Shown here: piece after piece, positions 11,163 through 28,627 of the stretch
Position numbering within the stretch: the first letter of the stretch is position 1
Layout: every line of letters begins with the position of its first letter
Assembly: GCA_019261985.1 (NCBI GenBank)
Contig: JAFAQY010000027.1
Coordinates: 124,001 to 188,000, forward strand
DNA: 64,000 bases
DNA from: Bryobacterales bacterium
GTDB taxonomy: Bacteria; Acidobacteriota; Terriglobia; Bryobacterales; Bryobacteraceae
Direction of reading: 5' to 3'
The notes under the pieces: generated by a model
What the model saw: only the letters and a program-made list of their open reading frames with translations
What the model was told of the DNA's origin: nothing
Databases searched by the model: none
Program-made: the position numbers and the translations under genes

Positions 11163-13709
11163 CTACTGCAAAATCGCCTCAATTGCAATCGTCGCGGTCT
11201 GGCTAGCGGTAACTTCGCCCTTCGGTGAGCGGTAGCGGATCGCAACCGGAATCGCAGCGCCCAACGGAGCGGCCGCTGGAACACTAACCGTGACATTCGA
11301 GACCCCCGCAGCGACCGGCTCAACAGATGCTGCCGGCAATTCCAAATCACCGATTTGGATCGAGAGCAGGTTCGGATCCGTGCCGGCGGAAATGCCGGTG
11401 ACCGGTATCCGCAGTTGGTCCCCGGCTTGAGCCGGCTCGGCGGCGAAGCGATGATTGCGCGGCATCGCGATTAAAGAGCCATCGATGATCGTCGCCGCAG
11501 CTTGGCCGCCCGCAGCGCCGTCGACGGTGAAGATACCAAGCGCCGAATCCCGCAGCACTGTTTTGAGTGCGTTGCTTCGGCCAGCGGCCGTTTGTACCGC
11601 TACCTCAATAGGCGTTCCAGCCGCCAGAGACGGGCACACAAATGTGACCTGCTCCGTCGAAGCGAACACAACCGGAACGGGTGCGCGGTTCACCAGCACT
11701 TCCGTGCCCGGCGCCAGCCAACCGCCGCCCGCAGTCGCCAAAGATCCGCTAGAACACACCGAATCCGTAGATCCACTCGCGGCGTTCTGTACCGTGTCGA
11801 TTACGGGTGCACCTGAACCGGTCTGAATCTGCACCTCGGCTGCCGACGAACGCTGTGCCGCATCCGTCACCGAGAAGATCACTTTGAACAATCCCGCTTG
11901 CGATGCCGCCGGTGTCCACTCGAAAACTCCCGACGTGGGGTCGAAGCCGGCTCCGGACGGCAACGAAGTGGCTGCAAGAATGCCGGATGAGGCCGTCACC
12001 TGGAAAGCTAATCTCTGGTCGAAAATCGCGAATTGCCTCCCCCGTGCGGATAACACGGGTTGCCCGGATGCTTGAACCGAGATCCGCTCCTCCACTGTGG
12101 AACCAAACGCGGAGGCTTGGATCGACACCGTTTGCGTAACCGCCGGGGAATCCACTATGGCCTGAAACGAGATTGTCGATTGCCGCGCGCGTGCAGTCAC
12201 GCGAACCGGAAGGTGAACGAATGCTTCGCTTGCCGATAAAACCACTTCGGATGGACCCTCAGCCGCCTCACTCAACTGAACCTCGCAGTTGAGAGCCGTT
12301 CCTGCACGGACCAATTTCGGCTGACATGAGACATTGTGCGGGACGCCGATTCCGCCCATGCTTTTGCCAATCTCCGCGGCAGAAATGGTTGCGGTGGCCG
12401 GGACTCCACTGGCTTTGATCGTTACCGAAACAGGGCCTGAATACCCGGTGAGGGCCGTAACCTTGAAGGTCCCCGAAGTCGCGCCGCCGGTCACAGTAGT
12501 GGATGCGGGCGCCGATAATTTCGCGCTGCTGCTTAAAACCGCCAGGCTTTCGCCGCCCGCGGGAGCAGGCCCGGCGAGTGCAAAGCTGCACGTGCTGGTC
12601 TGGCCGGCTTTCAAAGTAGCCGGAACGCAGCTTAACGATTTCGGAGGGACCATGCCAATCGTGAAACTTGCCGACTGAGTCACGCCACTGATAGATGCGC
12701 TGACGATAACCGTAAAGTAGTCCGCCCCACCCACAGTCCCCGAAAACTTCGCTGACGCGGTTCCGCTTGGAACAGTAACCGATGCCGGCATGCTGATCCT
12801 GGCTCCCGCGTTCGTGCTAATGCTAACAATCGTCGCGGCAGGGGCAGTTTCCGAAAGGGCAACTGAGCACGTTGTCGTCGGTCCAAGTGGGGCGGCGATC
12901 GCGGACGGCGTGCAGGTCAACCCGGTCACGAGGATCGAAAGCGTGAACGTCAGGGTCTTGGTGATTCCATAACCGGATGCCGTAATGCCAACGCTGCGCG
13001 TGACGGAGGCCAGAGTTGTCGAATTGGCGGTAAAGCTTGCGGAGCTGGCGCCCACCGGGACTGTAACGCTTGCCGGAACCGTTAGTGATGACGAGTTGCT
13101 GCTGATTGTGAACGTGCGCGCGCTGGTAGCCGCGCTGGTCAATGTGACGGCGCAGGCTGCACTTGAATTATTGGCCATGATTTGCCCGCCGGCTAACCCG
13201 GATAACGTGCAAGTCAGCGAGGAAAGGCTGCCCGCCGTGCTCGCCGCGCTGACGGTGACCGTTCCACTGCCGGCGGTAATCGCTTCGGCCGTTCCGGACG
13301 CCGTCACCGCGTAAGTATTCGATAGGTTGACGGTCGTTGTGGAAGCGGCGGCCGAAAGATTCACGGCTACCATCGCGAGTACTCCGTTTCCAATCGTGCT
13401 GGAGTTCATGCCGGACACGGTACACGTATAAACGCCTGGGGTTGAACCGCACTTCAGAGATTTGCCCGCAGCCGTGGCGGCCGGACCGGCGGAAGCGTTT
13501 ATCGCGGTGAAATTCGACGCCGGGTAGTTTAGCTTCCATTGCACCGCCGCCGGCTGGGTGCCTGACGCCGACGAAATTGAGATGTTCAAAATAACGCTTG
13601 CGCCGGGCGTGGCCGTGGCTGAAGAAACGCTTAACGCAGGCTGAGAATAAAGCAAGCCGCAACTCAGTAGGAAGAAAAGTGCGGTAAAGATTTTTCGGCT
13701 GTGTGGCAT
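11163..13709 (-). CDS. Giant secreted Ig-like protein 1: signal peptide, cohesin-like module, Ig-like repeats, Solibacter-type (TIGR03437-like) C-terminal domain
   Basis: MPHSRKIFTALFFLLSCGLLYSQ signal; SISSASGTQPAAVQWKLNYPASNF...AGKSLKC...YTCTVSGMNSSTIGNGVLA; repeated CxP...SxTxxxAxGxxSxxF modules; NAASGSTD...GGWLAPGTEVLVN...GIFTVDG. Confidence 0.85.
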   Translation of the reverse strand: MPHSRKIFTALFFLLSCGLLYSQPALSVSSATATPGASVILNISISSASGTQPAAVQWKLNYPASNFTAINASAGPAATAAGKSLKCGSTPGVYTCTVSGMNSSTIGNGVLAMVAVNLSAAASTTTVNLSNTYAVTASGTAEAITAGSGTVTVSAASTAGSLSSLTCTLSGLAGGQIMANNSSAACAVTLTSAATSARTFTISSNSSSLTVPASVTVPVGASSASFTANSTTLASVTRSVGITASGYGITKTLTFTLSILVTGLTCTPSAIAAPLGPTTTCSVALSETAPAATIVSISTNAGARISMPASVTVPSGTASAKFSGTVGGADYFTVIVSASISGVTQSASFTIGMVPPKSLSCVPATLKAGQTSTCSFALAGPAPAGGESLAVLSSSAKLSAPASTTVTGGATSGTFKVTALTGYSGPVSVTIKASGVPATATISAAEIGKSMGGIGVPHNVSCQPKLVRAGTALNCEVQLSEAAEGPSEVVLSASEAFVHLPVRVTARARQSTISFQAIVDSPAVTQTVSIQASAFGSTVEERISVQASGQPVLSARGRQFAIFDQRLAFQVTASSGILAATSLPSGAGFDPTSGVFEWTPAASQAGLFKVIFSVTDAAQRSSAAEVQIQTGSGAPVIDTVQNAASGSTDSVCSSGSLATAGGGWLAPGTEVLVNRAPVPVVFASTEQVTFVCPSLAAGTPIEVAVQTAAGRSNALKTVLRDSALGIFTVDGAAGGQAAATIIDGSLIAMPRNHRFAAEPAQAGDQLRIPVTGISAGTDPNLLSIQIGDLELPAASVEPVAAGVSNVTVSVPAAAPLGAAIPVAIRYRSPKGEVTASQTATIAIEAILQ

Positions 13710-13766
13710 CGGTCTTTTCTTAGCCTGAGGTACGTCCGGAGTACGAACAATAAGATGGAAACCTTG
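13710..13766 (-). promoter_or_regulatory. Conserved upstream element, copy 1
   Basis: Minus strand CAAGGTTTCCATCTTATTGTTCGTAC...GTACCTCAGGCTAAGAAAAGACCG is shared with 16756-16812. Confidence 0.55.
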
Positions 13767-13796
13767 AGCGGGGACCCGATTTGCATTAAAACAACG

Positions 13797-13904
13797 GAGC
13801 AGGCTGCCAGTCCTGCGCGCGGGTTGCTTACGCGCGTGGCCCGTGTTTGCACACGCCGGCCAGCGCGATTTGGCGATCGCGCGCAGGATGGCATCCTGCC
13901 CCAC
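13797..13904. repeat. Composite palindromic intergenic repeat, family A, copy 2
   Basis: Reverse strand gtggggcaggatgccatcctgcgcgcgatcgccaaatcgcgctggccggc...; same architecture as copies 1 and 3. Confidence 0.8.
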
Positions 13905-13910
13905 AGCCGC

Positions 13911-16727
13911 TTACTCGCGCGGTGCTTCGATCGCGATCGTTGCCGATTGGCTTACCGAAATTTGACCGTCGGGCGCCCGGTCGCGCACGATAATCGGAAT
14001 TGCGTCACCTGCTCTGACGGCCTGGGGAAGCGTCGCTGAAACGGTTACGATTCCGCTCGCGCCTTCCAGGGCCTGCACCGATTCCGCCGCGACTTCGATG
14101 TCGCCTATCTGAACTCCGATAAGATTCGGGTCGGCGCTGCTGGATAATCCGGTCACCGGAATGCGTATCGTGTCCCCCGGCTGAGCGGGCTGGCCCGGAT
14201 AGCGGTGATTGCGCGCCATCGCGATCTGCGAGCCATCGAGAATCGTCGCGGCAGCCTGGCCATTACTCGATCCGTCCACCGTGAAAATACCTGGCGCCGA
14301 ATCTCGTAGCCGCGCGCTGATCGGGGCGCTTTTGCCCGCTGCTGTCTCTACCGCGACCGAGAACGTACTTCCGGCGGAGCCCGAAGGACACGCAAATGTA
14401 ACCTCGGTGGGCGAGGCGGATAAAGCCGGAACCGGCGCGCCATTCACCAGGAGCTGGGTACCCGGCGCCAGCCAGCCGCCGCGCAAGGTCGCCAATGATC
14501 CCTCCGAGCAAACTACGTCTCGCGAATGGCTGCCGGCGTTCTCGATGCTCTCGATCACCGGCACTCCGGAGCCGGTTTGAATTTGCACCTCGGCCTCGGC
14601 GGACCGCCCCGCAGCATCGCTGGCGGAGAATCGGATTTTCCAAAGGCCCCTTTCCGATTCAGCTGCGGTCCAGTCGAACAACCCCGTGGAGCTGTCGAAA
14701 GATGCGCCTTGCGGAAGCTCCGTTGCGGATAGCACGCCCGCTGTCGCGCCAACCTGGAATGTCAACCGCTTTCCGAATGTCGCGAACTGTTTGCCGGGAA
14801 CCGACAAACCAGCGCGATTGGACGCCTGGACTGAAATCCGCTCCTCCGCGACAGAATCGCCCGCCGCAGTCTGAATAGCAACGCTTTGCGTGGATGCCGA
14901 GGGATCGATCCATGCGTGGAATGAGATTGTCGATTGATGGGGTCGCGCAATTACCCGCGCAGGCACATGCGTTGACGGATCGCTCGCTGCCACAGCCAGT
15001 TCGGCGCCGCTCTCATTTGAACTACTCAACTGGATTTGACAGCTAACGGTTTCCCCGGCTTGAGCCAGTTTCGGAGAGCAGGTCAAGTTTTGGGGCAGGC
15101 TGGTACTGGGTGAGGGCGAGCCGTTGCGCCGGGGCTCCACGGCCAAAGAAATTTTCGCGGTGGCTGTAATTCCACTAGCTTTCACCGTTACCGTCACCGG
15201 CCCGGAATAACCTGTCAACGCGGCGACGGCGAAAGTGCCGGAGGTAACTCCACCGGGGGTCGTAGCTTGCGCGGGCGCCGATAAACGCGTGCTGCTCGTC
15301 AGGATGTACAGCCTGTCGCCGCCCGCCGGCGCCGCGCTAACCAGTGTGAATGTGCAAACGCTGCTTTGGCCGGCCGTCAGGGTCGCCGGAGAGCAGGTCA
15401 ACGAGTTCGCCGGAACCATCCCGATAGTGAAGCTCGCCGATTGAGGCAATCCGCTGAGTGAGGCTTTCGCCGTCACGACGAAGTAATCCGCGCCTCCGAC
15501 CGTAGGCGAAAAGTTCACGCTGGCGGCCCCGGCCGGCACAGTCACCGAAGCGGGCATGCTGATCCTTGTTCCGGCGTTGTTGGTAATGGCCACCGGCGTG
15601 GCCGCGGCGGCGGTTTGGCTCAGAGTGATCGTGCAACTTGTGGAGGTCGAATTGGGCGAGGCAATCGCGGTTGGCGTGCAACTCAACCCGGTAACTAAAA
15701 CCGAGATCGTGAAAGTGAGATTTTGGGTAACCGCGTATCCGCTCGCCGACAACGTTACGCTTTTCGTGACCGAGGGCAGCGCTGCCGAATTTAGGGTAAA
15801 CGTCGCGGAGCTCGATCCTGGCGCGACGACAACGGTGGACGGTGAGGTCAGCAGAGTCGAACTGCTGGCGAGCGTGTACGTCTGGCTCGCTGCCGCGGTT
15901 CCCGTCAAATTTAAAGCGCAGTTCGCCGTCCCGGCGCTGCTCATAATCTGAGTACCCGATACCGTTGGCACTGTGCAGGTGATCGAAGATAGAGGCGCGG
16001 CTGGCACCACCGTCAGGGTCGTATTTTGCGACATGCCCATGTACGATGCCGTTATCAGGCTCGTTTGGGCCGCCGAAACGGCGGAGGTGGCCACCGGGAC
16101 CGTAGCGGATGTCGCGCCCGCCGCAATCGTCACCGTTGAAGGCAGAGCCGTGGCTGACCCGCTCGACGATAGTGTCACGGTTGCTCCCGCCGAGGGCGCC
16201 GGCCCCGATAAATTGATCAGGCACGCGCTCGAATCGCCGCCGGCCACGGTTCCCGGAGCGCACGCGATCGAGGAGACCATCACGCCGGAAAAAACCGTCT
16301 CGGTGGCTCCGAGCGAGCTGCTGCCCGCCGACCCTGTCATATTGACGGTGATCGATGTGCCGGGGTACGTCAGCGCAAAATTGAACGAGGCGATGATGCC
16401 GTTTGAAATGATGCTCGAATTCATCCCCTTTAGGGCGCAGCTATATGTCCCGAAATCGATCGCGCAGGACAACGTTTTCCCGGCGGCCGTTGCCGCCGGC
16501 CCCGGCGTTCCGGTGACGATAGTCACCAGTCCCGCTGGAAAGTTTAGAGTCCATTGCAAAGCCGAGGGCTCGCTCCCGGCGGGAGAGGAGAGCGAGAGAT
16601 TCATAATCACATTCGTCGACGAGGTGGTGCCGAGCGCGCCGCCCGGAGATAACGTTAAAGCGGGTTGGGCACACAGAAAATTGCAGGTGATTAAAACAAA
16701 CAGGATTAAAAATAAATGTTTATGCAC
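13911..16727 (-). CDS. Giant secreted Ig-like protein 2, paralog of 1 and 3 (probable GTG start)
   Basis: VHKHLFLILFVLITCNFLCAQPALTLSP signal; SLSSPAGSEPSALQWTLNFPAGLV...AGKTLSC..YSCALKGMNSSIISNGIIA; same domain order as paralogs. Confidence 0.85.
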   Translation of the reverse strand: MHKHLFLILFVLITCNFLCAQPALTLSPGGALGTTSSTNVIMNLSLSSPAGSEPSALQWTLNFPAGLVTIVTGTPGPAATAAGKTLSCAIDFGTYSCALKGMNSSIISNGIIASFNFALTYPGTSITVNMTGSAGSSSLGATETVFSGVMVSSIACAPGTVAGGDSSACLINLSGPAPSAGATVTLSSSGSATALPSTVTIAAGATSATVPVATSAVSAAQTSLITASYMGMSQNTTLTVVPAAPLSSITCTVPTVSGTQIMSSAGTANCALNLTGTAAASQTYTLASSSTLLTSPSTVVVAPGSSSATFTLNSAALPSVTKSVTLSASGYAVTQNLTFTISVLVTGLSCTPTAIASPNSTSTSCTITLSQTAAAATPVAITNNAGTRISMPASVTVPAGAASVNFSPTVGGADYFVVTAKASLSGLPQSASFTIGMVPANSLTCSPATLTAGQSSVCTFTLVSAAPAGGDRLYILTSSTRLSAPAQATTPGGVTSGTFAVAALTGYSGPVTVTVKASGITATAKISLAVEPRRNGSPSPSTSLPQNLTCSPKLAQAGETVSCQIQLSSSNESGAELAVAASDPSTHVPARVIARPHQSTISFHAWIDPSASTQSVAIQTAAGDSVAEERISVQASNRAGLSVPGKQFATFGKRLTFQVGATAGVLSATELPQGASFDSSTGLFDWTAAESERGLWKIRFSASDAAGRSAEAEVQIQTGSGVPVIESIENAGSHSRDVVCSEGSLATLRGGWLAPGTQLLVNGAPVPALSASPTEVTFACPSGSAGSTFSVAVETAAGKSAPISARLRDSAPGIFTVDGSSNGQAAATILDGSQIAMARNHRYPGQPAQPGDTIRIPVTGLSSSADPNLIGVQIGDIEVAAESVQALEGASGIVTVSATLPQAVRAGDAIPIIVRDRAPDGQISVSQSATIAIEAPRE

Positions 16728-16755
16728 TGGAGTTAGCCATCCTTTGTTCGGATAT

Positions 16756-16812
16756 CGGTCTTTTCCTAGCCTGAGGTAACTCGGCGGTACGAACAATAAG
16801 ATGGAAGCCTTG
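16756..16812 (-). promoter_or_regulatory. Conserved upstream element, copy 2
   Basis: CAAGGCTTCCATCTTATTGTTCGTACCGCC...TTACCTCAGGCTAGGAAAAGACCG on the minus strand, near-identical to 13710-13766. Confidence 0.55.
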
Positions 16813-16944
16813 GAGCGCGCGCCTGATCTGCCTGCCTCGCCGCCTAACGGAAGCGAGCGCGAAAACCCGGTTAACTTATGCGGTGAGGCAGTGTATTTTA
16901 CGTTAAAAGAAATCTGTCCGCGGCCGATATTTTCCGCAAGTAAC

Positions 16945-16985
16945 CCAAAATAAAAATGGCGTCCGTCCACAAAGGGGCGGACGCC
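16945..16985 (-). terminator. Rho-independent terminator downstream of giant protein 3
   Basis: Minus strand GGCGTCCG-ccccTTTGTGGA-CGGACGCC followed by ATTTTTATTTT. Confidence 0.8.
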
Positions 16986-17011: not shown

Positions 17012-20000
17012 CTATTGCTGAATTGCTTCGATCGCGATCGTGGTTTGCTGGCTTGTCGCGACCTCGCCGCTGGGCAAACGGCGCCGGACCGATAACGGAA
17101 TTGCGTTACCGGCCGGCGCTGCGGCAGGCAGCGTGATCCCGATCACTACTACTCCGGCCACCGTGCCGGGCCGGACCCATTCAGCAGGCAACTCTAAATC
17201 GCCCGCTCGTACCGAAATCAAACCAGGATCGCAGTCAGCACGCAGGCCTGTCACGGGAATCTCGAGAACATCGCCGGATTGCGCCGGCTGTCCCGCGAAT
17301 CGGTAGTTCCGAGCCATCGCAATCTGAGATCCCCCTAGAATCCTGGCGGCCGCCTGTCCGTTGGCGGAACCGTCCACGGTAAAAATTCCTAGCGCCGAAT
17401 TCGAGAGGGCGGTCGTGAGCGTCCCGGGTTGGCCTGCCTCGGTCTCCACGGCTATTGAGAGCGGAGCTCCCGCAGGGCCGTCCGGGCACAAAAAAGTGAC
17501 TTCCGTCGATGACGCGTGTAGCACCGGCGCCGCCGCCCCGTTAACGGAAACACGCGCTTGCGCCGACAACCATCCGCCGCGAAGTTTTGCCAGAGAACCG
17601 CCCGAGCAAACCGAATCGATTGCTCCGCTTGCGGCGTTCTCTAATCTGTCGAGGACAGGCGCTCCAGACCCCGTCTGAACGCTGACATCGGAGAAAGCAG
17701 AGCGTCCACTCGCGTCCGCAGCCGAGAAACGCACGTTAAATATGCCTGACTGTGATTCCTCCGGAACCCAATCAAAGATTCCCGTCGCAGGATCGAAATT
17801 TGCGCCCGCAGGCAATCCCGTGGCCGAGAGAATGCCCGTTGAGGATGTATCGAATGCCGCGGTCACCGTAAACGAGAGCCTCTTTCCAATTGCGGCAAAC
17901 TGCTTGTCCGGAACGGATAGGGTGGGTCCGTTCCGCAAAACTGAGATTCGCTCCTCTATTGAAGACTCGTCCGAGCCCGCTCGAATGGCAACCGTCCCGG
18001 CCTTAGCCGCCGTATCTACGATCGCTTGGAACGATACGACGCTTTGATGAGGGCGGCCTTCGATGAGATCGGGAACGTGCACCGATGCATCGGTCGCGAA
18101 TAGCGGCACCACCGCGCCGGACGCCACTTCCGCAGTTAATTGCACTTGACAGGGGACCGTGCCTCCTGGAAGCACGACTTTCGGTGTACAGGTTATTCCG
18201 GCGATCGGCGGCTGGCCACCACCCATGCCCCGTTTCGGCCTTACGACGGCTGAGGAGATGGTCGCCGACGCCGGCACTCCAGCCGCCTTAATTGTCACCA
18301 CGACAGGGCCAACATATCCCGTCAAAGCCTTAACGGTGAAACTGCCCGATGTCAAACCGGCCGCAAGCGTAAGAGCTGCTGCCGGCACGGATAGCAAGGT
18401 GCTGCTGCTGGACACATTTAATGTGTCACCGCCGGCCGGAGCGGGTGCAACCAGAGTGAAAGTACAAGTGCTCGTCTGCCCCGCGGTCAACCTCGCCGGA
18501 GTGCAAGTCACCGATTTGGGCGGTACCAAGCCGATCGTGAAGCTGCCCGATTGAGTGATTCCGTTCAGTGAAGCGTTGATCGTCACGGTGTAATAATCCG
18601 CGCGCCCGGCGGTTGTGGAGAAAGTAGCCGAGGAGCTGCCAGCCGAAACTGTGAGCGTTGCCGGAATCGTCACCCTTCCGCCGGAGTTGCTGGCAATTGC
18701 CACCGCGGTCGCGGCCGAAACGGCTTGCGTCAGCGTTGTCGTACAAGTCGTAGTCGGGGCAGCCGGAGCGGCGATCGCATTGGGGGTGCAACTTACCTTC
18801 GATACCAGCACCGCCACTTTAAAGCCTACGTTTTGCGCGGCGCCGTAGCCGCTTGCGGTGACCGTCACTGTGCCGGAACTGGAACTCAATTTCGTCGAAG
18901 TGACGGTAAACGATGCCGATACGGAGCCCGCAACCACACTAACGGAGGCCGGAGCCGTGAGGAACGTTGTGCTGCTGGTGAGCGTGAACGACTCGTCCGC
19001 GGTCGACGCGCCGGACAAGTTGACGGCGCACGTAGCCGAAGAAGAGCTGCCCATCATTTGGGTCCCGGAAGCGGTGGGAAGGGTGCACGTAACGGATGAA
19101 ATTGGAACAGCCGGAACCGCCGTTACGCTCCCGGTTTGGGATGTTCCGTTGTAGCCGGCCGTGATGGTGCTGCTCTGGCTGCTCGCCACGGTGGAAGTTG
19201 TGGCCGTGACCGTGGTCGACGTCCCGCCAGCGGCAATCGTCACCGTTCCTGGAACGGTCACGGCGGAGTTGCTCGATGCAAGCGTAATAGTTGCCCCGCC
19301 CGCTGGCGCCGCGGCTGAGAGCGTGATCGTACATATACTGGAATCGCCTCCCGCCACCATTGCTGGAGAGCACGATAGCAAGGAAACACCGGATGATCCC
19401 GTCACGGTGATGCTTGCCACACCCGAGGTTCCCCCGGAACCAGCAATGATCGTATACGTGCCCGAGGGTCTGCCCGTCAGTGCCGTAGCAGTAAAAGTCC
19501 CGGTTAAAGATCCTGCCGCGACGGCAAAAGACGGGAGGCTGAAGTAATCATTACCGAGGAGCTCAACTGGATTTCCGCCCGCCCCTGCTGCTCCGGTGAG
19601 CGTAACAGTGCAACTGATGGATTGTCCCGGCGCAACCGTTGCTGGAGTACACGCGAGGGAAGAAACGGGTATTGCGGAGGTTCCGGGTCCCGAACTGCCT
19701 CCGCTGCTTCCGCCACCACCGCCTCCTCCTCCGCTGGCTGAACCCAGCCCCGAAAACGAGAGCGTGCTTCCGGTTGGATCCACGCCATCGGCTCCGCTAA
19801 GAGTGGCCGTCGTACTCGTTACGCCCGGTTGCAGCGTAATGTTAACGGTTGCGATCACACCGTTGGTAATGATATTCGAATTCATCCCGCTTGCAACGCA
19901 GCTGAACAGGCCGAAGTTCATCGTGCATGCGAGTGCTTTTCCGGCGCTCGTTAACGAGGGTCCGGCTGTTGCCGTAGCCGTCAGCACAGACGAGGCCGGA

Positions 20001-20179
20001 AAGGTGATCGCCCAATCAATCGCAGCCGGCTCGGAGCCCGACGGTGAAGAAATCGAAAGATTCACCGTGAGGATCCCTCCGCCGCTGGTTCCGGGCGACA
20101 ATGTCAATACATCCGCTTGGGCATAAATTAATGCAGGCGTAAATAAAGCAACCGCCGGTAACCAAAAAGACACTTTCAA
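17012..20179 (-). CDS. Giant secreted Ig-like protein 3, paralog of 1 and 2 (probable TTG start)
   Basis: LKVSFWLPAVALFTPALIYAQADVLTLSP signal; SISSPSGSEPAAIDWAITFPASSV...AGKALACTMNFGLFSCVASGMNSNIITNGVIA; Ig repeats; He_PIG-like and TIGR03437-like C-terminus. Confidence 0.85.
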   Translation of the reverse strand: MKVSFWLPAVALFTPALIYAQADVLTLSPGTSGGGILTVNLSISSPSGSEPAAIDWAITFPASSVLTATATAGPSLTSAGKALACTMNFGLFSCVASGMNSNIITNGVIATVNITLQPGVTSTTATLSGADGVDPTGSTLSFSGLGSASGGGGGGGGSSGGSSGPGTSAIPVSSLACTPATVAPGQSISCTVTLTGAAGAGGNPVELLGNDYFSLPSFAVAAGSLTGTFTATALTGRPSGTYTIIAGSGGTSGVASITVTGSSGVSLLSCSPAMVAGGDSSICTITLSAAAPAGGATITLASSNSAVTVPGTVTIAAGGTSTTVTATTSTVASSQSSTITAGYNGTSQTGSVTAVPAVPISSVTCTLPTASGTQMMGSSSSATCAVNLSGASTADESFTLTSSTTFLTAPASVSVVAGSVSASFTVTSTKLSSSSGTVTVTASGYGAAQNVGFKVAVLVSKVSCTPNAIAAPAAPTTTCTTTLTQAVSAATAVAIASNSGGRVTIPATLTVSAGSSSATFSTTAGRADYYTVTINASLNGITQSGSFTIGLVPPKSVTCTPARLTAGQTSTCTFTLVAPAPAGGDTLNVSSSSTLLSVPAAALTLAAGLTSGSFTVKALTGYVGPVVVTIKAAGVPASATISSAVVRPKRGMGGGQPPIAGITCTPKVVLPGGTVPCQVQLTAEVASGAVVPLFATDASVHVPDLIEGRPHQSVVSFQAIVDTAAKAGTVAIRAGSDESSIEERISVLRNGPTLSVPDKQFAAIGKRLSFTVTAAFDTSSTGILSATGLPAGANFDPATGIFDWVPEESQSGIFNVRFSAADASGRSAFSDVSVQTGSGAPVLDRLENAASGAIDSVCSGGSLAKLRGGWLSAQARVSVNGAAAPVLHASSTEVTFLCPDGPAGAPLSIAVETEAGQPGTLTTALSNSALGIFTVDGSANGQAAARILGGSQIAMARNYRFAGQPAQSGDVLEIPVTGLRADCDPGLISVRAGDLELPAEWVRPGTVAGVVVIGITLPAAAPAGNAIPLSVRRRLPSGEVATSQQTTIAIEAIQQ

Positions 20180-20231
20180 TGCAGCACCTTCCTCCGGCCC
20201 TTTCCGGGCCGTTAGAGGTCAATGAGCCTCC
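20180..20231 (-). promoter_or_regulatory. 5' leader with mutually exclusive pairings around the ribosome binding site
   Basis: RNA 5' GGAGGCUCAUUGACCUCUAACGGCCCGGAAAGGGCCGGAGGAAGGUGCUGCA-UUG: CCUC can pair with the upstream GAGG or the downstream GGAGG (SD). Confidence 0.4.
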
Positions 20232-20488
20232 AGTGTTGCGGCAGGCTTGTCCCCTTTTGTTGTAAGATCTTCTAACCTAAGTCAAATTAGAAAGAGGGAC
20301 AAGCGGAAATTTGCGGGTATACGGATTTGGCTGGTCGCCGCCCCTTGTCAAGACAATGGCGGTTCTCGCTTATTTACCGCGGCGTGTTTCGGGCGCTGCG
20401 GAATCGGTACTAAATATAAAAAGTAAGTTAATTCGCCCGCAATTATTTTACAATAAGCCAGGATTAATTTATTCGTATTGCCGATTAT

Positions 20489-21037
20489 TCAAAGCGGACG
20501 GACATAAGCCGCATCGATTTCCGAGGCCACGCCGCGGCCCAGCAAAGTAACGGAAACAACCAGCCGGTAGGAACTTTTCACTTTCAGCAGGATTCCTTCG
20601 ACGCCCGTGAGCGGCCCGCGATGCACTCGCACTCGCTGCCCAATTCGCAAAAATGGCCAGGGTTCTACGGTCGATTGCGTTTCGGCCATTTTCCGCACGG
20701 CAGCCAGCTCCCGTTCATCGATCGGCAACGGCTGGTTTTGACTTCCAGCCAGGCCGACGACGCCCGTGGTCGCGAGCACCTTGGGGCGGGATTCAAGCGC
20801 GATGCGGCAGAACACGTACCCGGGAATCAAAGGCAGTTCGATTTCACGGACCCTGTCGGACCAGGCGCGGCGCGTTTTATACAGCGGCAGGTATTCCTGG
20901 ATGTCCTTCGCGCGAAGGAGTTGGCTGACCTGGCGTTCGAAATTCGAGCGGACGCGTAGACCATACCAGGACTGCTTTTCGGCTGAGATGACCGGCGTGT
21001 TTTTAGCCGCTGTCGAGAGCCCGAATCCTTTGCTCAT
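20489..21037 (-). CDS. NusG-family specialised antiterminator (UpxY/RfaH/LoaP-like)
   Basis: KQSWYGLRVRSNFERQVSQLLRAKDIQEYLPLYKTRRAWSDRVREIELPLIPGYVFCRIALE... plus KOW-like RIGQRVRVHRGPLTGVEGILL. Confidence 0.9.
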   Translation of the reverse strand: MSKGFGLSTAAKNTPVISAEKQSWYGLRVRSNFERQVSQLLRAKDIQEYLPLYKTRRAWSDRVREIELPLIPGYVFCRIALESRPKVLATTGVVGLAGSQNQPLPIDERELAAVRKMAETQSTVEPWPFLRIGQRVRVHRGPLTGVEGILLKVKSSYRLVVSVTLLGRGVASEIDAAYVRPL

Positions 21038-21049
21038 GCTTGTGCGGGG

Positions 21050-21523
21050 TTACTTCGAAATCGTAATCTCGACGCGTGCATCTTTAAGGGCCACTTTTTT
21101 CAGATCCGGCATTACCGCAATTGCCTTCTTTATTTGCACCTCGTAGCGGCCTGGACGGAATGGGCGCGCTCCGCCGAATTTTAAATTGGCGATCGGCCCG
21201 CCGGGTATAGCGGCCGTCCCCCCCGCCAGGATGCAGCGCACAGTTTGCGTTTTGCCTTGCCGGCTGGCGAGCAGTTCGCATCGGATCGCTTTCTGGGCCT
21301 TTGCCGCTGCCTCCTCGGTACTGGCCCCTTTGAAGTCCAACTGAACAGACTCGGGAAACGAAAACTCCCATTGAAGAGCGACCGGTTCTTTTCCCTCGGC
21401 TTGCAGAAGTTCGATCGACAGAGCGCCGTTTCTGCCGTTCGGAGCAGGTTGGACTTCGATCGGGTGCAGCGTCTGGGCGCACACGGGCAGGGAACACAAC
21501 ATCGCTAACGAAAAAAACTTCAT
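21050..21523 (-). CDS. Secreted stand-alone cohesin-like module protein
   Basis: LSIELLQAEGKEPVALQWEFSFPESVQLDFKGASTEEAAAKAQKAIRCELL...VRCILAGGTAAIPGGPIANLKFG aligns by eye with the N-terminal modules of the three giant proteins. Confidence 0.65.
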   Translation of the reverse strand: MKFFSLAMLCSLPVCAQTLHPIEVQPAPNGRNGALSIELLQAEGKEPVALQWEFSFPESVQLDFKGASTEEAAAKAQKAIRCELLASRQGKTQTVRCILAGGTAAIPGGPIANLKFGGARPFRPGRYEVQIKKAIAVMPDLKKVALKDARVEITISK

Positions 21524-21527
21524 CCTA

Positions 21528-22172
21528 CTATCTGCGCGCGGTCAGATTCGATATACCGTAGCAACGCTGTACTTCGGGTATGAGCTTCGAGGCGAAAGCG
21601 ACGGCTTCTTCAACCGCTCCCGGCCGGTCGGGCAGCATGACACGGACGAGCGCTCCATCCGTCCGGCCGTCGAGTACGGCATCCTTCATCAGCAGAAACT
21701 TACCGACGTATTCGCTCGCAATCACTCTAGACCCGGATTGATACCAGTAAAGGACGATTTGGCGTTCGCTTCCTTTATGGATCGAATACTTATTCACAGT
21801 CACCGCGGCTCCGTTTACCGGCACCTCCACGGACCCATACTGCCAAATTTCCCATCCGCTGCCCGGTAGGCAATGCTTGGGAGAATGCATGCTCTCGCCG
21901 CTGCGCTGTTCCGCGTAGTAAGCGATAAACAAACTCAGGTATTGACTGCCGCGCGAATAAATGCGCGACACGTAGTCGGTCAGGACCAGGCGCTTGAGCT
22001 CGTTCGGGGGTAGGGGAGCATCTTGCGCGAAATTCCATCCGGCGAGCGATACGGGAATGTCGTTGAGCGGGTGCGTCAACGACTGCGGATGGCGCCGTTC
22101 GGTGTAAGCAGACGTCGCAAGCGTTGCACCGAGAATTGCAATAACGCCGGCAAACGGCCATGCGGTCTTCAC
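21528..22172 (-). CDS. epsI: Exosortase-associated EpsI-domain protein (GTG start)
   Basis: LNDIPVSLAGW..., YYAEQRSGESMHSPKHCLPGSGWEIW, VLYWYQSGSRVIASEY. Confidence 0.9.
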   Translation of the reverse strand: MKTAWPFAGVIAILGATLATSAYTERRHPQSLTHPLNDIPVSLAGWNFAQDAPLPPNELKRLVLTDYVSRIYSRGSQYLSLFIAYYAEQRSGESMHSPKHCLPGSGWEIWQYGSVEVPVNGAAVTVNKYSIHKGSERQIVLYWYQSGSRVIASEYVGKFLLMKDAVLDGRTDGALVRVMLPDRPGAVEEAVAFASKLIPEVQRCYGISNLTARR

Positions 22173-22174
22173 GA

Positions 22175-23065
22175 CTACGCGACAGCTCCTTTCGGGGATC
22201 TCTCCAGGACAGCATGCGTCAGTTTGGCGATGCCGATAAAGGCCACAAAACCTACCACGAAAACCAACCAACCCGCGAACGCGTGATAAAATCCCTCCGC
22301 AAATTCCTCATTGTAATCCGCCAGGATCGCGGTCCCGGAAACGCGCAAGACGTTCACCGCGATAGACAAGGGAGCGCTCAGCACAACCAACAATATGCGC
22401 GCGGGCAGCGAATTACACAAAAACTGGCCCAGCAAAAGCGCCGCCACCATCAGCGCCGAGAACGAATTGAGGCCGCTGCAAGCTTCATCCACACCCAGCG
22501 ACATATGCGCCAGTTGAATGATGTTTCCATCCCGGTAAACGCTCACATGGAACCACTGCGCGACCGTGGTGGCGACGCCAGACGCGAATAACTGCAGCGG
22601 CGCGGTGGCCGTGTTATACACAATGGCGGGAAGGGGAATCATGGTGGCGAGCAAAATCAGGGGGAACATCAACCGCTTTAGCCGGTCGTGGCCCCCGTAC
22701 GCCCAGATTAAGCCGGCCAACACCAAAATCAGCGAAAACCTTTGCAAGAAAAACTCAGCTGCAAGCTTGCCGGCCAAAAATGTGAGAGACCCGGCCGCCA
22801 CCAACCACAGTCCGCGCAGGCTCGGCTGGGCACGTATCGCCAATAGGGGTCTGCGATCCAGCCACGCGAAATACAACGCCAGCGGCGGCAGCAGTATCCC
22901 TTGGGAAAAACTGGGTTGGTTCCACCAGTCGTCGAAAAGCCCCGCCAAAGTTCGGCCATAAATAACAGCTATCAAAACGGCGATTGCGCCAAATTCAAAG
23001 ACACGCCTTGCAGGAAGGTCAATACCCGGCTTTGCGGGAGCGGGAGCCGTCATCGCGGGCTGCAT
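22175..23065 (-). CDS. xrt: Exosortase (XrtA/EpsH-type transmembrane sortase-like transpeptidase)
   Basis: GVDEACSGLNSFSALM (catalytic Cys), NVLRVSGTAILADYN (Arg), GFYHAFAGWLVF (His), multi-TM. Confidence 0.93.
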   Translation of the reverse strand: MQPAMTAPAPAKPGIDLPARRVFEFGAIAVLIAVIYGRTLAGLFDDWWNQPSFSQGILLPPLALYFAWLDRRPLLAIRAQPSLRGLWLVAAGSLTFLAGKLAAEFFLQRFSLILVLAGLIWAYGGHDRLKRLMFPLILLATMIPLPAIVYNTATAPLQLFASGVATTVAQWFHVSVYRDGNIIQLAHMSLGVDEACSGLNSFSALMVAALLLGQFLCNSLPARILLVVLSAPLSIAVNVLRVSGTAILADYNEEFAEGFYHAFAGWLVFVVGFVAFIGIAKLTHAVLERSPKGAVA

Positions 23066-23384
23066 CGGAGGTATCCGCGGTGCAAATGTGTAGCCAACCC
23101 CGCCCCCAGATCTTTCGAATTTCGATTCTTCGCGGTGGCGGCGCACTCGAAAGCGCCCGGCTAGCTGCCCGAAACGACAAACTTTAGCAAGGAGCGATAA
23201 AAAATGGCCTACGGGGCTTTGCTCCGGGAGCTTGTGACGCGACGTGGTTTGTGGAGAGCGGTCTTTCGGGCACGCCTCCTCCACTCGGAACCCCATTTTT
23301 GGTACCTAGCGCGAGTCGGTCTTGGCACCCGAATTGCCCGACCCACCGGGGCGGGAATCACGGTTAGGGAGATACGAGGGGGGA

Positions 23385-24884
23385 ATGAGCTTTAAGGACA
23401 TGCGCCGCGGGAGCGGCCGATTTAAGGGCCCGAAGACTCGCACTTTTTTCAAGCTTTTCACTCTAACCGCCGGAATCTGTGTTGTTAGCGCCAGCGCGCA
23501 GAACACGATGACCAGCGCCGTGAATGAGTTGCAGCGGGCCGGCTTTGGTTTTTACAATCTCTCCGTGTTTGGAGGCTACACTAATTCAACCTTTCCGACG
23601 GTGGATTCTACGGGCACGATTAATCCGAATTTTGCCTTCCACACCCTCATGACGGGCGTTACCGCGTCCATTGGCTGGCGGGCCAAGAAATCGGAACATC
23701 TGCACTTCGATGTTCGCTATACGCCGTCCTATTACTATCAAGCTTCTTCCACCGGCCTCCACACCTCCCGATTCACGCCCAATCAGAACCTCACGTTAGG
23801 CTGGAATCAAACGTTCAAAACCAGATGGAGCATGGGTGCAAATCTGGTAGTCGTGTATTCGGATTACAATCAACTCCTTTTGTTGTCCGACCCCAATCAG
23901 ATTTATGCCGGCATCCCCGGCACGCCAGGCGAATACGCGACCGCGGTGTTATCGGGTAGTGGGACCAACGCCGGACTTAACGCGGCCGCAGGCGCTTCGT
24001 CCGTTGTGGCCGGCCAGCAGAACCTCTTATACGGCAATCGCATTCTGTCGGGCGCCGCAAGCTTCTCGCTGGGGTACGAGGTCAGCCCCCGGCTTCATCT
24101 GACCGGAGGTTTTTCCGGTTCAAGAATGCAGCACCTTGCAGACAACACGGCCCCCCAAACGCCGTACCTGCTGCAACAGTCGAGCACGGTATCCGCAACC
24201 TTGGGGCTCAATTATTTGCTATCGGAGCGCGCGAATCTGACCGGGAACATGAGCTACTCCCGCGCCATATCCAGCCTGTACAGTGTCCCGAGCATGAACA
24301 TCATGATTGGAGCTGGCTACAGACTTACCGAGCACCTTTTCGTGCACGGGGCCGGAGGGGCCGGCTATCTGCTGCCGATCACCCAGGGCGGGGTTTCAAC
24401 ACCGTTCTCGCGAACGCAGTGGCAGGCATCGGCTGGCTTGGGATATCGCATCCTGCGTCAATCGTTCATGGGTACGGTGGCGCGGACCGTTTCCGACAAT
24501 TTTGGTTTAAACGGCTCCGCGACTTTGCTTGCCAGCGCCGGATGGGGTTGGAGCCCGTTGGGAAGCTCCTGGGGTATTACCGCCGGCGCGGCCGAGGTAC
24601 GTCTCAGCGGCACGAATTATGGCAACCAGGGTTATAGAGTTATGGCCGGGCTGACGCGTACAGTTAAAAGCCATATATTCATGAACTTAAGCTATGGTTA
24701 TGGGGCTGGGAACAGTCTACTGCCGCTGGCCGGGACGGGACTTGCCGCGACGGGGCTTGCTGGCACGCGGTACAGCTCGCAATCCCATTCGGTAAGGCTC
24801 ACTATCGGCATACGGCCCTATTTGGGGTCGCCAATCGGGATTGGGGCGTCGCCTGCAGAGGGCGGTGGCCTCCAGTTCCCGTGA
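23385..24884 (+). CDS. Putative outer-membrane beta-barrel protein of the EPS locus
   Basis: Signal-like N-terminus FFKLFTLTAGICVVSASAQ, alternating amphipathic strands; divergent from exosortase. Confidence 0.6.
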   Translation: MSFKDMRRGSGRFKGPKTRTFFKLFTLTAGICVVSASAQNTMTSAVNELQRAGFGFYNLSVFGGYTNSTFPTVDSTGTINPNFAFHTLMTGVTASIGWRAKKSEHLHFDVRYTPSYYYQASSTGLHTSRFTPNQNLTLGWNQTFKTRWSMGANLVVVYSDYNQLLLLSDPNQIYAGIPGTPGEYATAVLSGSGTNAGLNAAAGASSVVAGQQNLLYGNRILSGAASFSLGYEVSPRLHLTGGFSGSRMQHLADNTAPQTPYLLQQSSTVSATLGLNYLLSERANLTGNMSYSRAISSLYSVPSMNIMIGAGYRLTEHLFVHGAGGAGYLLPITQGGVSTPFSRTQWQASAGLGYRILRQSFMGTVARTVSDNFGLNGSATLLASAGWGWSPLGSSWGITAGAAEVRLSGTNYGNQGYRVMAGLTRTVKSHIFMNLSYGYGAGNSLLPLAGTGLAATGLAGTRYSSQSHSVRLTIGIRPYLGSPIGIGASPAEGGGLQFP

Positions 24885-24920: not shown

Positions 24921-26321
24921 ATGCGGGTTTTTAGTCAGTACGTCGCCGTAAAAAGCATATTGCTTCTCGTGCTCGAGGGGCTGATTGCCGCCTTTTCGCT
25001 CATCGGGGCGACTTGGCTTCGTTTTTTCAGCGAACCGGAGCAGTTCACGGCAATGTTGGGAAACCCCATTTACTGGCTTCGCGTTTTGGTGGTGGTGGTC
25101 GCTTTATTGGTGGCGTTCTATTGCAATAAGCTCTACGACTTCAACGCTCTGCGGAGCCGGCAGGAGTATTTCCGCCAGGATCAGATGATCCGGCTGGTGG
25201 AGAGCGTGGCGTATGTATGTTTTCCGCTGGCTCTGCTCTATTATTTCGTGCCCGATTTGATGCTCGGCCGCGGCATAGCGCTCATCTCGATCGCTCTGAT
25301 GCTGCCGCTCATAGCCTGGTGCAGGCTGGCGGTTTCAAGCGGCGTGCTCGAACAGAAGGTCCTGATTATCGGGGCCGGCGAGCTGGCGGAAGCGGTTTCA
25401 AAAGAGTTTTCCTCGCGCGCGGACTTGCATCTCTCGGTAGTTGGTTTCTTGACCGGGCCCGACCGCCGCGATGCGATGCCGGCTCCGGGATGCCGCGTTC
25501 TGGGCGCCGTGGAGGATCTGATGTCGGTCGCGCGCTCCACGCAAGCGAACCGGATCATCGTGGCATTGCAGGAGCGCCGCCGCGCACTGCCGGTTCGGGA
25601 TTTGGTCCGGCTGCGCATGGAGGGAGTGGAGATCGAAGATGCGCAAACCGCGATGGCGTCGCTGAGCGGGCGCGTAAGCCTCAGCACCATCCAGCCCAGC
25701 TGGTTCGTATTTTCCGACGGATTCCGGCGCTCGGAAGCCCTGTTCGCCATCAAGCGGACCATCGATTTTGTCTGCGCTATTTTAGGTTTGATTTTGACGC
25801 TCCCGATCATGGCTATCGTGGCTTTGGCCATCAAACTCGATTCCGAGGGTCCGGCCATGTACCGCCAAAGACGGGTGGGTCTGGCGGGGCGGGTGTTTGA
25901 AGTTCTGAAATTCCGATCCATGCGCACCGACGCCGAGAAGGATGGGCCTAAATGGGCGAGTTCAAGGGATTCGCGGATTACGCGCATCGGAGGGTTCTTG
26001 AGAAAGTATCGATTCGATGAGCTTCCGCAATTCTGGAACGTGATCCGCGGCGATATGAGTTTCGTGGGTCCCCGGCCCGAGCGGCCGGAGTTCGTCGAGC
26101 AGTTGCGCGAGGTCATTCCGTATTACGATGAAAGGCACACGGTGCGTCCGGGCATCACCGGTTGGGCGCAGGTTCAGTACGAATATGGGGCGAGCGTCGA
26201 AGCCGCCTGCCGCAAGCTGGAATACGATTTGTTTTATCTCAAGAACATGTCGGCATTATTCGATCTGCGGATTATTTATAAAACCATCGAGACCGTCCTC
26301 ACGGGAAAAGGCGCGCACTGA
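24921..26321 (+). CDS. EPS biosynthesis polyprenyl glycosylphosphotransferase (WcaJ/EpsB-like)
   Basis: YRQRRVGLAGRVFEVLKFRSMRTDAEKDGPKWA...GFLRKYRFDELPQFWNVIRGDMSFVGPRPERPEFV...RPGITGWAQV. Confidence 0.94.
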   Translation: MRVFSQYVAVKSILLLVLEGLIAAFSLIGATWLRFFSEPEQFTAMLGNPIYWLRVLVVVVALLVAFYCNKLYDFNALRSRQEYFRQDQMIRLVESVAYVCFPLALLYYFVPDLMLGRGIALISIALMLPLIAWCRLAVSSGVLEQKVLIIGAGELAEAVSKEFSSRADLHLSVVGFLTGPDRRDAMPAPGCRVLGAVEDLMSVARSTQANRIIVALQERRRALPVRDLVRLRMEGVEIEDAQTAMASLSGRVSLSTIQPSWFVFSDGFRRSEALFAIKRTIDFVCAILGLILTLPIMAIVALAIKLDSEGPAMYRQRRVGLAGRVFEVLKFRSMRTDAEKDGPKWASSRDSRITRIGGFLRKYRFDELPQFWNVIRGDMSFVGPRPERPEFVEQLREVIPYYDERHTVRPGITGWAQVQYEYGASVEAACRKLEYDLFYLKNMSALFDLRIIYKTIETVLTGKGAH

Positions 26322-26362: not shown

Positions 26363-28627
26363 ATGCAACATTCCTTTCTAAAAGTTGGTTCCTTATGTTT
26401 GGCCGCGATATTTGCGTTGAGCGCCTGCTCGCACCGGGCCGATGTCCGCAAGCTCCGGTTCATGGAAAACGGCCGCAGGCTGTATGACAAAAGGGATTAT
26501 GCGCGCGCCATTATCGAATGGAAGAATGCGGTCGAAATCGCCAATGGGGATCCTGAGCCGTACTACTGGCTGGGGATGGGCTATCTTGGCGCGGGCAATA
26601 TTCCGCTCGCCATCGACAGCTTTCGCCATGCCGCCGATCTCGACCCGAAGCATGCCGCTGCGCAACTGCGCATGGCCGAGCTTCTGACCCTGAGCGATGA
26701 CCCGGAGTTGCTTCAGGACGCGGTGAAACGGCTTCAGATCGTTTTGAACGTGGGGCCTTCTCCCGATGCGCTGAATGCGATGGCGCTGACCGAGCTCAAG
26801 CTCGGAAACGAACAGGATTCGCAGCAGTACCTGGAAGACGCCTTGACGCGCTTCCCCCAGAACATGTCGTCCTACGTCGTCCTTTCGAAGCTCAAAATCA
26901 TCAAGCACGATCTGGCCGGGGCGGAGGACGTTCTGAAACGCGCGGTCGCGGCAGCGCCGAAGTCCGCCGATGCCCGCATCGCGCTCGGGAACTTCTATCT
27001 CGCCACCCATCGGGATCAGGAAGGCGAAAAGCTAATACGCGAGGCCGTGGATCTGGACAAGAAGAGCGGGGCTCCGCAACTGAATCTGGGAATGCTGCTT
27101 TACCGAACGGGACGAAAGCCGGAAGCCGAGCAAATCTTCCGGCAGCTCGCCGATTTCCCGGAGCCCTCGCTCAAAACATTGCACGCGATTTATCTTTTCA
27201 AGGAAGGAAATACCGAGGGCGCCCGCGCGGAACTGGAAAAACTATTCAAAGCGAACCCGAATAGCCGGGAGCTCCGCGCGCGGCTGCTTTCTTTTTATTG
27301 GGCGACGAACCGGCTCGATCTGGTGGAGCAGGCATTGAATGCCGCGATCAAGAAGAATCCCAAAGACCTCGACGCGCTGTTAAAGCGCGGTGAATTATAT
27401 GTTGTCACGGATCGTTTTCAGCAGGCCCAAACGGATCTGAATGCCGTCCTCGATTTACGGCCCGAGTCTGCCGTGCTGCACTATGTGATGGCCAAGCTCG
27501 AACAGGCGCGCGGTTCCGACGCCGGCTATCGCCAGGGTCTTGCCGAGGCGTTGCAGTTGAATCCCGGCCTTTTGCGGGCGCGCCTCGAATTGGCCAACCG
27601 GCTGACGGCGGGGAACGCGCCGGATTCGGCGATCAAGCTTCTGGACGAAGCGCCCGCCGCGGACAGAGGTAACGTCCAACTTGTCGCCGAGCGCAACTGG
27701 GCGTTGCTGGCCCAGCAGAATTACGGCGAGCTCCGAAAAAACATAAAATTAGAACTCCTCCAGGCGCGCCTTCCGGAGCTGCTGGTGCAGGATGGATGGG
27801 TCAAGATTCGCGACCGCGATTATGCGGCGGCGAAGGCGTCGCTCGAAGAAGGATTAGAGAAGGCGCCGAGCGACTCCCGGGTGCTGGTCGCGCTAGGGGC
27901 CTTGTACCGGGCGCAAAACAAAGCAAGCGAGTTCACCGACCGGCTCCGCAAGTACGGAGAAAGCAACAGATCCGCGGAAATTCAGTTCTTTATCGGGGAC
28001 TGGCTGCGCCAAACGGGCGACCGGGATGGCGCGCGCAGGTTTTTGCTGGCGGCGAAGGCGGCCGATCCGACCTTTCACGAGGTGGATGTCGCTCTCGCGG
28101 CGCTTGAAATCGCCAGCGGTAACGTGGAAGCCGCGAAAGCGCTGCTGAATCAGCTGACCAAGCTCCGGGACCGGGACGTCTCGCTGCGCGTTCAGCTGGC
28201 CAATCTGGACGTCTCTGGAAATCGCGTGCCGGACGCCATCGATCAGTACCGCAAGATTTTAGCGATCGATAGGGGTAATCTATACGCCCTGAATAACCTG
28301 GCTTATCTGCTGGCAAGCCTCAACCAATCCGATGAGGCGCTCGCGTATGCACAGCAGGCGCAGGAGTTGGCGCCTACGCTGCCGGAAGTGGAAGACACGC
28401 TCGGTTGGGTGCTTTACAACAAGGCGATTTACGGAGAAGCGGTGAGTTATCTTGAGGCTGCGGCGAAAAAAAGTGCCGATCCGGCGATTCAGTATCATTT
28501 GGGCTTGGCGTACTACAAAGCGGGCAAAAGCGATCGCGGAGCGCAGGTCCTGAAGGCCGCTTTGAAGGCCGCGCCCAACCTTAGGGAAGCCGAGCTTGCG
28601 CGGCAACAGATGGGGCTGAGCCAGTGA
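26363..28627 (+). CDS. prsT: PEP-CTERM system TPR-repeat lipoprotein (PrsT-like)
   Basis: Lipobox LSAC; many TPR units (PYYWLGMGYLGAGNIPLAIDSFRHAADLDP...); exosortase context. Confidence 0.87.
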   Translation: MQHSFLKVGSLCLAAIFALSACSHRADVRKLRFMENGRRLYDKRDYARAIIEWKNAVEIANGDPEPYYWLGMGYLGAGNIPLAIDSFRHAADLDPKHAAAQLRMAELLTLSDDPELLQDAVKRLQIVLNVGPSPDALNAMALTELKLGNEQDSQQYLEDALTRFPQNMSSYVVLSKLKIIKHDLAGAEDVLKRAVAAAPKSADARIALGNFYLATHRDQEGEKLIREAVDLDKKSGAPQLNLGMLLYRTGRKPEAEQIFRQLADFPEPSLKTLHAIYLFKEGNTEGARAELEKLFKANPNSRELRARLLSFYWATNRLDLVEQALNAAIKKNPKDLDALLKRGELYVVTDRFQQAQTDLNAVLDLRPESAVLHYVMAKLEQARGSDAGYRQGLAEALQLNPGLLRARLELANRLTAGNAPDSAIKLLDEAPAADRGNVQLVAERNWALLAQQNYGELRKNIKLELLQARLPELLVQDGWVKIRDRDYAAAKASLEEGLEKAPSDSRVLVALGALYRAQNKASEFTDRLRKYGESNRSAEIQFFIGDWLRQTGDRDGARRFLLAAKAADPTFHEVDVALAALEIASGNVEAAKALLNQLTKLRDRDVSLRVQLANLDVSGNRVPDAIDQYRKILAIDRGNLYALNNLAYLLASLNQSDEALAYAQQAQELAPTLPEVEDTLGWVLYNKAIYGEAVSYLEAAAKKSADPAIQYHLGLAYYKAGKSDRGAQVLKAALKAAPNLREAELARQQMGLSQ

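Follow-up and report, generated by a model that had tools for sequence, protein, structure and literature searches.

Why should a small secreted protein, made of the same domain that stands at the N-terminus of three giant proteins, be encoded between the epsI and nusG-like genes of an exosortase locus in a member of the Bryobacterales? This question was addressed in a stretch of 64,000 nucleotides, hereafter called the window (positions 124001–188000 of contig C82 of genome G000, which comprises 6.49 Mb in 138 contigs), and the protein in question was named P0001.

Gene Order around the Stand-Alone Protein

P0001 is encoded on the minus strand (21050–21523) by an open reading frame of 157 aa with an ATG start, an N-terminal signal peptide (MKFFSLAMLCSLPVCAQ, ending ...VCAQ), and two conserved cysteines, Cys82 and Cys97. 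It is not a chance reading frame, because orthologues exist, for example in genome G021, where a protein with 35–36% identity occupies the syntenic place; a scan of the contigs with P0001 as the query returned a single match, on the G021 contig. The C-terminus (KDARVEITISK) has no hydrophobic tail, and thus a PEP-CTERM-type sorting signal, the mark of an exosortase substrate, was not found on this protein. Nine PEP-CTERM matches are scattered elsewhere in the G000 genome, and a second exosortase/epsI pair is located on its contig C37 (L082). A lipobox on P0001 was considered and rejected, as its LPVC sequence was judged by eye to lie off consensus.

The order of genes on the minus strand is exosortase, epsI, P0001, nusG-like gene and, after approximately 310 bp, the three giants. 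The exosortase of the EpsH family (22175–23296; PF09721, 9.5e-64) more likely starts at a Met about 77 residues into its open frame, and EpsI (DUF3485; 21528–22271; PF11984, 3.8e-50) has its true start further in, near 22174. The third neighbor is a transcription antiterminator of the NusG/UpxY family (20489–21037; NF033644, above cut-off). The preliminary description had placed a secreted product 4 nt after epsI (stop at 21528) and 12 nt before the nusG-like gene (start at 21037), and the product, its neighbors, and both gaps were all confirmed. The giants have 1055, 1019, and 913 aa (open frames 17012–20179, 13911–16970, and 11163–13904), and each carries one cohesin-like module on an Ig-like stalk (19749–20116, 16270–16673, and 13251–13637, respectively, all on the minus strand). 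The UpxY/NusG-type gene (20489–21037) lies upstream of these approximately 9 kb of same-strand giant genes and might be needed for their full transcription. When the region 20100–23500 was scanned for promoters and terminators, nothing above chance was found. On the plus strand, a divergent EPS operon begins at 23322 with the gene of an outer-membrane barrel-like protein (23322–24884), followed by an EpsB-type polyprenyl glycosylphosphotransferase (24921–26321; TIGR03013) and a PrsT-like TPR protein (26363–28627); further genes of the operon are of the Wzz-type, ATPase, sulfatase, flippase, and polymerase-like kinds.

Homology to the Giants and Cohesin Fold

The homology of P0001 to the N-terminal module of the giants, which the preliminary description had proposed, was borne out by several comparisons. 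BLASTP of P0001 against the three N-terminal domains gave E values of 3e-5, 1e-7, and 2e-5. When six stand-alones were aligned to the three giant modules by profile–profile comparison (hhalign), a probability of 98.8 was reached (E 5e-17, 131 columns), against a probability of 0.1 in the control comparison with the giants' Ig-like repeats, by which these repeats were rejected as the source of the module. A profile made from 51 giant-type modules, whose independence is qualified by their original collection with a mixed profile, recovered all 15 stand-alones (P0001 at 3e-15, Z=5000) and matched none of 300 shuffled sequences. All 13 members that were aligned, the giants among them, have the same residues at five positions (K78, C82, C97, G101, and G109).

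Judged by profiles and a structural model, the domain shared by P0001 and the giants is a cohesin. The preliminary description had overlooked this identity, as well as the dockerin protein encoded in the same window. Up to an E value of 1, all PDB entries retrieved with the joint family profile were cohesins from cellulosomal proteins (best match 1.7e-6), and nine of 13 family members matched Pfam Cohesin. One giant of the window, giant 3, exceeds the Pfam cut-off (PF00963); the G018 orthologue of P0001 scored 0.0018, below cut-off. P0001 itself is below the Pfam and NCBIfam thresholds, with no PF00963 match, and its fold assignment therefore relies on the profile and the model. The AlphaFold (AF2) model (pLDDT 86.7, pTM 0.79) has the beta-sandwich fold of cohesins: its 19 best PDB matches were all cohesins, with modules of Clostridium perfringens at the top and autonomous cohesins of Ruminococcus flavefaciens also among them. 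Based on the HMM alignment to 2vn5 and the strands of the model, Cys82 and Cys97 were placed on neighboring strands 5 and 6, a position consistent with a bridging disulfide.

A Separate Stand-Alone Lineage

When the 150 genomes of the family were searched with a stand-alone profile, 13 genomes scored at least 111 bits, followed by a gap down to 81 bits, where the giants start. The stand-alone family is present in at least 15 genomes. The earlier statement that the product resembles the first domain of the giants and hardly anything else was right about the first domain, and too narrow with regard to the breadth of the family and the cohesin fold. In a maximum-likelihood tree of 67 modules, the bootstrap of which was not fully settled, the 15 stand-alones, which come from the Bryobacterales family, were grouped in a clade of their own (99/98), away from the giants, with whose module they share the cysteine pair; one PA14-fused protein fell inside this clade. 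Because this clade is separate and well supported, the stand-alones appear from the tree as an old sister lineage of the giants' modules, and P0001 is not the recent copy for which it had been taken. Stand-alone-type cohesins also occur in fusion with an AMIN domain (L184:9821-11005) and with a PA14 domain (L074:1461-2489).

The preliminary description had suggested looking for the order exosortase-epsI-module-nusG in other Acidobacteriota. The full order was observed only in G000, and parts of it were found elsewhere: in G021, the module and nusG lie beside a syntenic EPS cluster without the exosortase, and in G010 and G173 the module is near exosortase/epsI. In G018, it is near PrsT and a giant.

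The Dockerin Protein and Its Genomic Association with Cohesins

The proposed partner is a secreted protein of 824 aa in the EPS cluster (41903–44377, plus strand), encoded between the sulfatase and flippase-like genes, whose C-terminus (CDLNGDGVVDVQDVQISINKALG...CRVGP) is a dockerin. Of the duplicated calcium-binding F-hand that characterizes type I dockerins, this divergent, Cys-bearing dockerin (44189–44374, plus strand) has a canonical first loop and a degenerate second loop, the latter being canonical in the orthologues L110, L111, L131, and L214. Its Pfam score is sub-threshold, and scores above cut-off were obtained in the orthologue L111 and in L118, L120, and L124; all four aligned homologues matched Dockerin_1 (best 9.5e-6, one above cut-off), and a profile of this dockerin type matched PDB dockerins at 5.5e-7. 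No other dockerin was detected in the 6.49-Mb genome, and all four Cys-cohesins are encoded within approximately 33 kb of it (all inside 11163–44377 of the window), while two more Pfam cohesins of G000 are on other contigs. The N-terminus of the 824-aa protein gave a weak match to PcRGLX (0.04), and the AlphaFold model of this protein (pLDDT 34) was too low for use.

Dockerin-less homologues of the 824-aa protein are common in the family. Several other arrangements were noticed in related genomes. A single chain of 206 aa (L124:600-1220) joins a cohesin-like module to a two-loop dockerin (Pfam 2.5e-6) and constitutes a natural adaptor. In G025, G013, and G008 (L116, L115, and L120), secreted proteins of approximately 380 aa with almost the same architecture make up another dockerin-bearing family, and on contig C63 of G167 (L199) the dockerin match of a 4154-aa open frame is located near two cohesin matches.

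We found that cohesins and dockerins were associated across the 150 family genomes: cohesins were present in 44, dockerins in 37, and both in 32 (Fisher test, 1e-17 with kinship ignored; 3e-10 when counted by genus). They are also neighbors in the genome, considering that 14 of 52 dockerins had a cohesin at a distance of 5 kb or less, against an expected 0.26, and 21 of the 52 at 25 kb or less, against 1.3. For genomes with a stand-alone the association was weaker than this general one (dockerin in 9/13, p 5e-4), and it may be partly owed to the giants. Full-length orthologues of the 824-aa protein with a dockerin were found in G000, G010, G025, G088, and G021. A stand-alone cohesin is present in all five of these genomes, and in four it shares the contig with the orthologue, approximately 14–46 kb away. 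The approximately 16 genomes with dockerin-less 824-type homologues, among them G096 and G068, which are equally close, have no stand-alone. The Fisher test for this pattern gave 2e-4 (4 vs. 16, family set, no correction for phylogeny), and 8e-4 if G095 is counted, in which a 1004-aa frame combines a partial 824-type match and a dockerin without a stand-alone. The five dockerin-bearing orthologues may represent one lineage.

Proposed Role and Alternative Explanations

We give about even odds (roughly 0.5) to the following reading: P0001 is a single, autonomous cohesin that is secreted into the periplasm or out of the cell, where it would attach to the 824-aa protein by way of the dockerin and act as a shuttle, an adaptor, or a competitor of the giants. 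An adaptor-type role had been one of the options of the preliminary description and fits the data best, with the binding inferred from the genomic association. The free cohesin would bind this dockerin, and others of its kind, by the usual calcium-dependent cohesin–dockerin contact. Soluble P0001 would then compete with the single cohesins of the giants for the dockerin protein, or hand it to them, and would decide whether this protein remains free or docks on the giants. The assembly would work on the exopolysaccharide or the surface matrix of the cell itself. The place of P0001 beside EPS genes and near the only dockerin detected in the genome suggests a cohesin–dockerin assembly applied to the bacterium's own extracellular matrix. 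In its fullest form the proposal is doubtful, and we put it forward only tentatively: at the exosortase locus, the Bryobacterales might possess a minimal, EPS-directed analogue of the cellulosome, in which Ig-stalk giants with one disulfide-braced cohesin each and a free shuttle or competitor cohesin would position a dockerin-tagged secreted protein on their own matrix.

The main rival reading, which seems to us plausible at somewhat below even odds, is that the cohesin fold was kept while the stand-alone lineage turned to another ligand (a polysaccharide, some other protein of the envelope, or the machinery for EPS export), so that P0001 would be a small accessory of the EPS locus working without a dockerin. 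It is the main rival because no dockerin was detected in four of the 13 stand-alone genomes of the family set; two of these four (G156 and G177) also lack a giant cohesin. The separate, divergent clade with its own conserved CxLxGG-like motif, the fusion of clade members to AMIN (L184) or PA14 (L074), and the EPS or exosortase settings of the stand-alones in G000, G021, G010, G018, and G173 point in the same direction. On the other hand, the stand-alone accompanies the dockerin-bearing 824-type orthologues in all five genomes and is absent from the genomes with dockerin-less homologues, and all five invariant residues are shared with the dockerin-linked giants.

Two further explanations take the adjoining giants as their starting point. 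P0001 might bind the cohesins or stalks of the giants and serve as a chaperone or cap during their export and assembly, as its operon-like place upstream of them on the same strand would allow. However, stand-alones also occur in G156, G177, and G121, in which the profile threshold used revealed no giant-type cohesin, and pairing of cohesin with cohesin is not the usual mode of this fold; we consider this role, which the preliminary description had raised and for which, as regards the chaperone, our data give no support, improbable. Alternatively, as the three adjoining giants begin with the same domain, P0001 could be a recently cut-off N-terminal module, left without a function of its own. 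Such a remnant is hardly credible, considering that the 15 stand-alones group together apart from the giants, that they have kept their length, their signal peptide, and their cysteines at 25–36% identity, and that the G021 orthologue adjoins nusG with no giant in the 20 kb read around it. An origin of P0001 from a truncated giant was rejected on the basis of the tree and this conservation.

Comparison with Known Systems

One of the closest parallels to the proposed shuttle or competitor is provided by the autonomous cohesins of R. flavefaciens, such as ScaG (4n2o, 4wkz), which were found by the fold search and are likewise single secreted cohesins without a scaffold. Voronov-Goldman et al. 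(2015; cited in PMC12484212) reportedly proposed that they act as a "molecular shuttle." However, they belong to a Gram-positive cellulosome and align to P0001 at 9–10% identity, whereas P0001 belongs to an exosortase/EPS cluster of Acidobacteriota and has a conserved Cys pair. The closest folds are the cohesins of C. perfringens glycoside hydrolases (2vo8, 2jh2, and 2w1n; E 8.7e-7, TM up to 0.80). These are also non-cellulosomal, but they are domains within enzymes, while P0001 is a free protein. Non-cellulosomal cohesin- and dockerin-like modules have reportedly been described before (Peer et al. 2009, cited in PMC5244752); as here, the organism is not one known for cellulosomes, and unlike those modules, the present pair is linked to a locus of the EPS/exosortase type. 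The locus is not a cellulosome, in which a multi-cohesin scaffoldin with a CBM gathers many dockerin-bearing enzymes acting on plant fibre: each protein has one cohesin, and a single dockerin was detected in G000. EPS clusters of the XrtA/PEP-CTERM type have EpsH, EpsI, EpsB_2, and PrsT-like neighbors in common with the window; according to the matches obtained, NCBIfam names no free cohesin, cohesin giant, or dockerin protein as a component of these systems.

In our literature search, no paper linking cohesin, dockerin, Acidobacteria, and exopolysaccharide was found, and cohesin, dockerin, and exosortase together retrieved only an ANME review. Cohesins and dockerins are widespread outside cellulosomes, and their role there is stated as not known (PMC5244752). 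The present locus is compact: besides the single dockerin detected, it has three scaffold-like cohesins and a free one, all in an EPS/exosortase cluster; therefore, one set of binding assays could test the function of such modules outside cellulosomes. The genome pattern also yields a prediction, namely that a dockerin on the 824-type protein accompanies a free cohesin. Compared with the known systems, P0001 is an autonomous cohesin that belongs to an EPS/exosortase cluster and not to a cellulosome, and the same locus encodes its probable dockerin partner.
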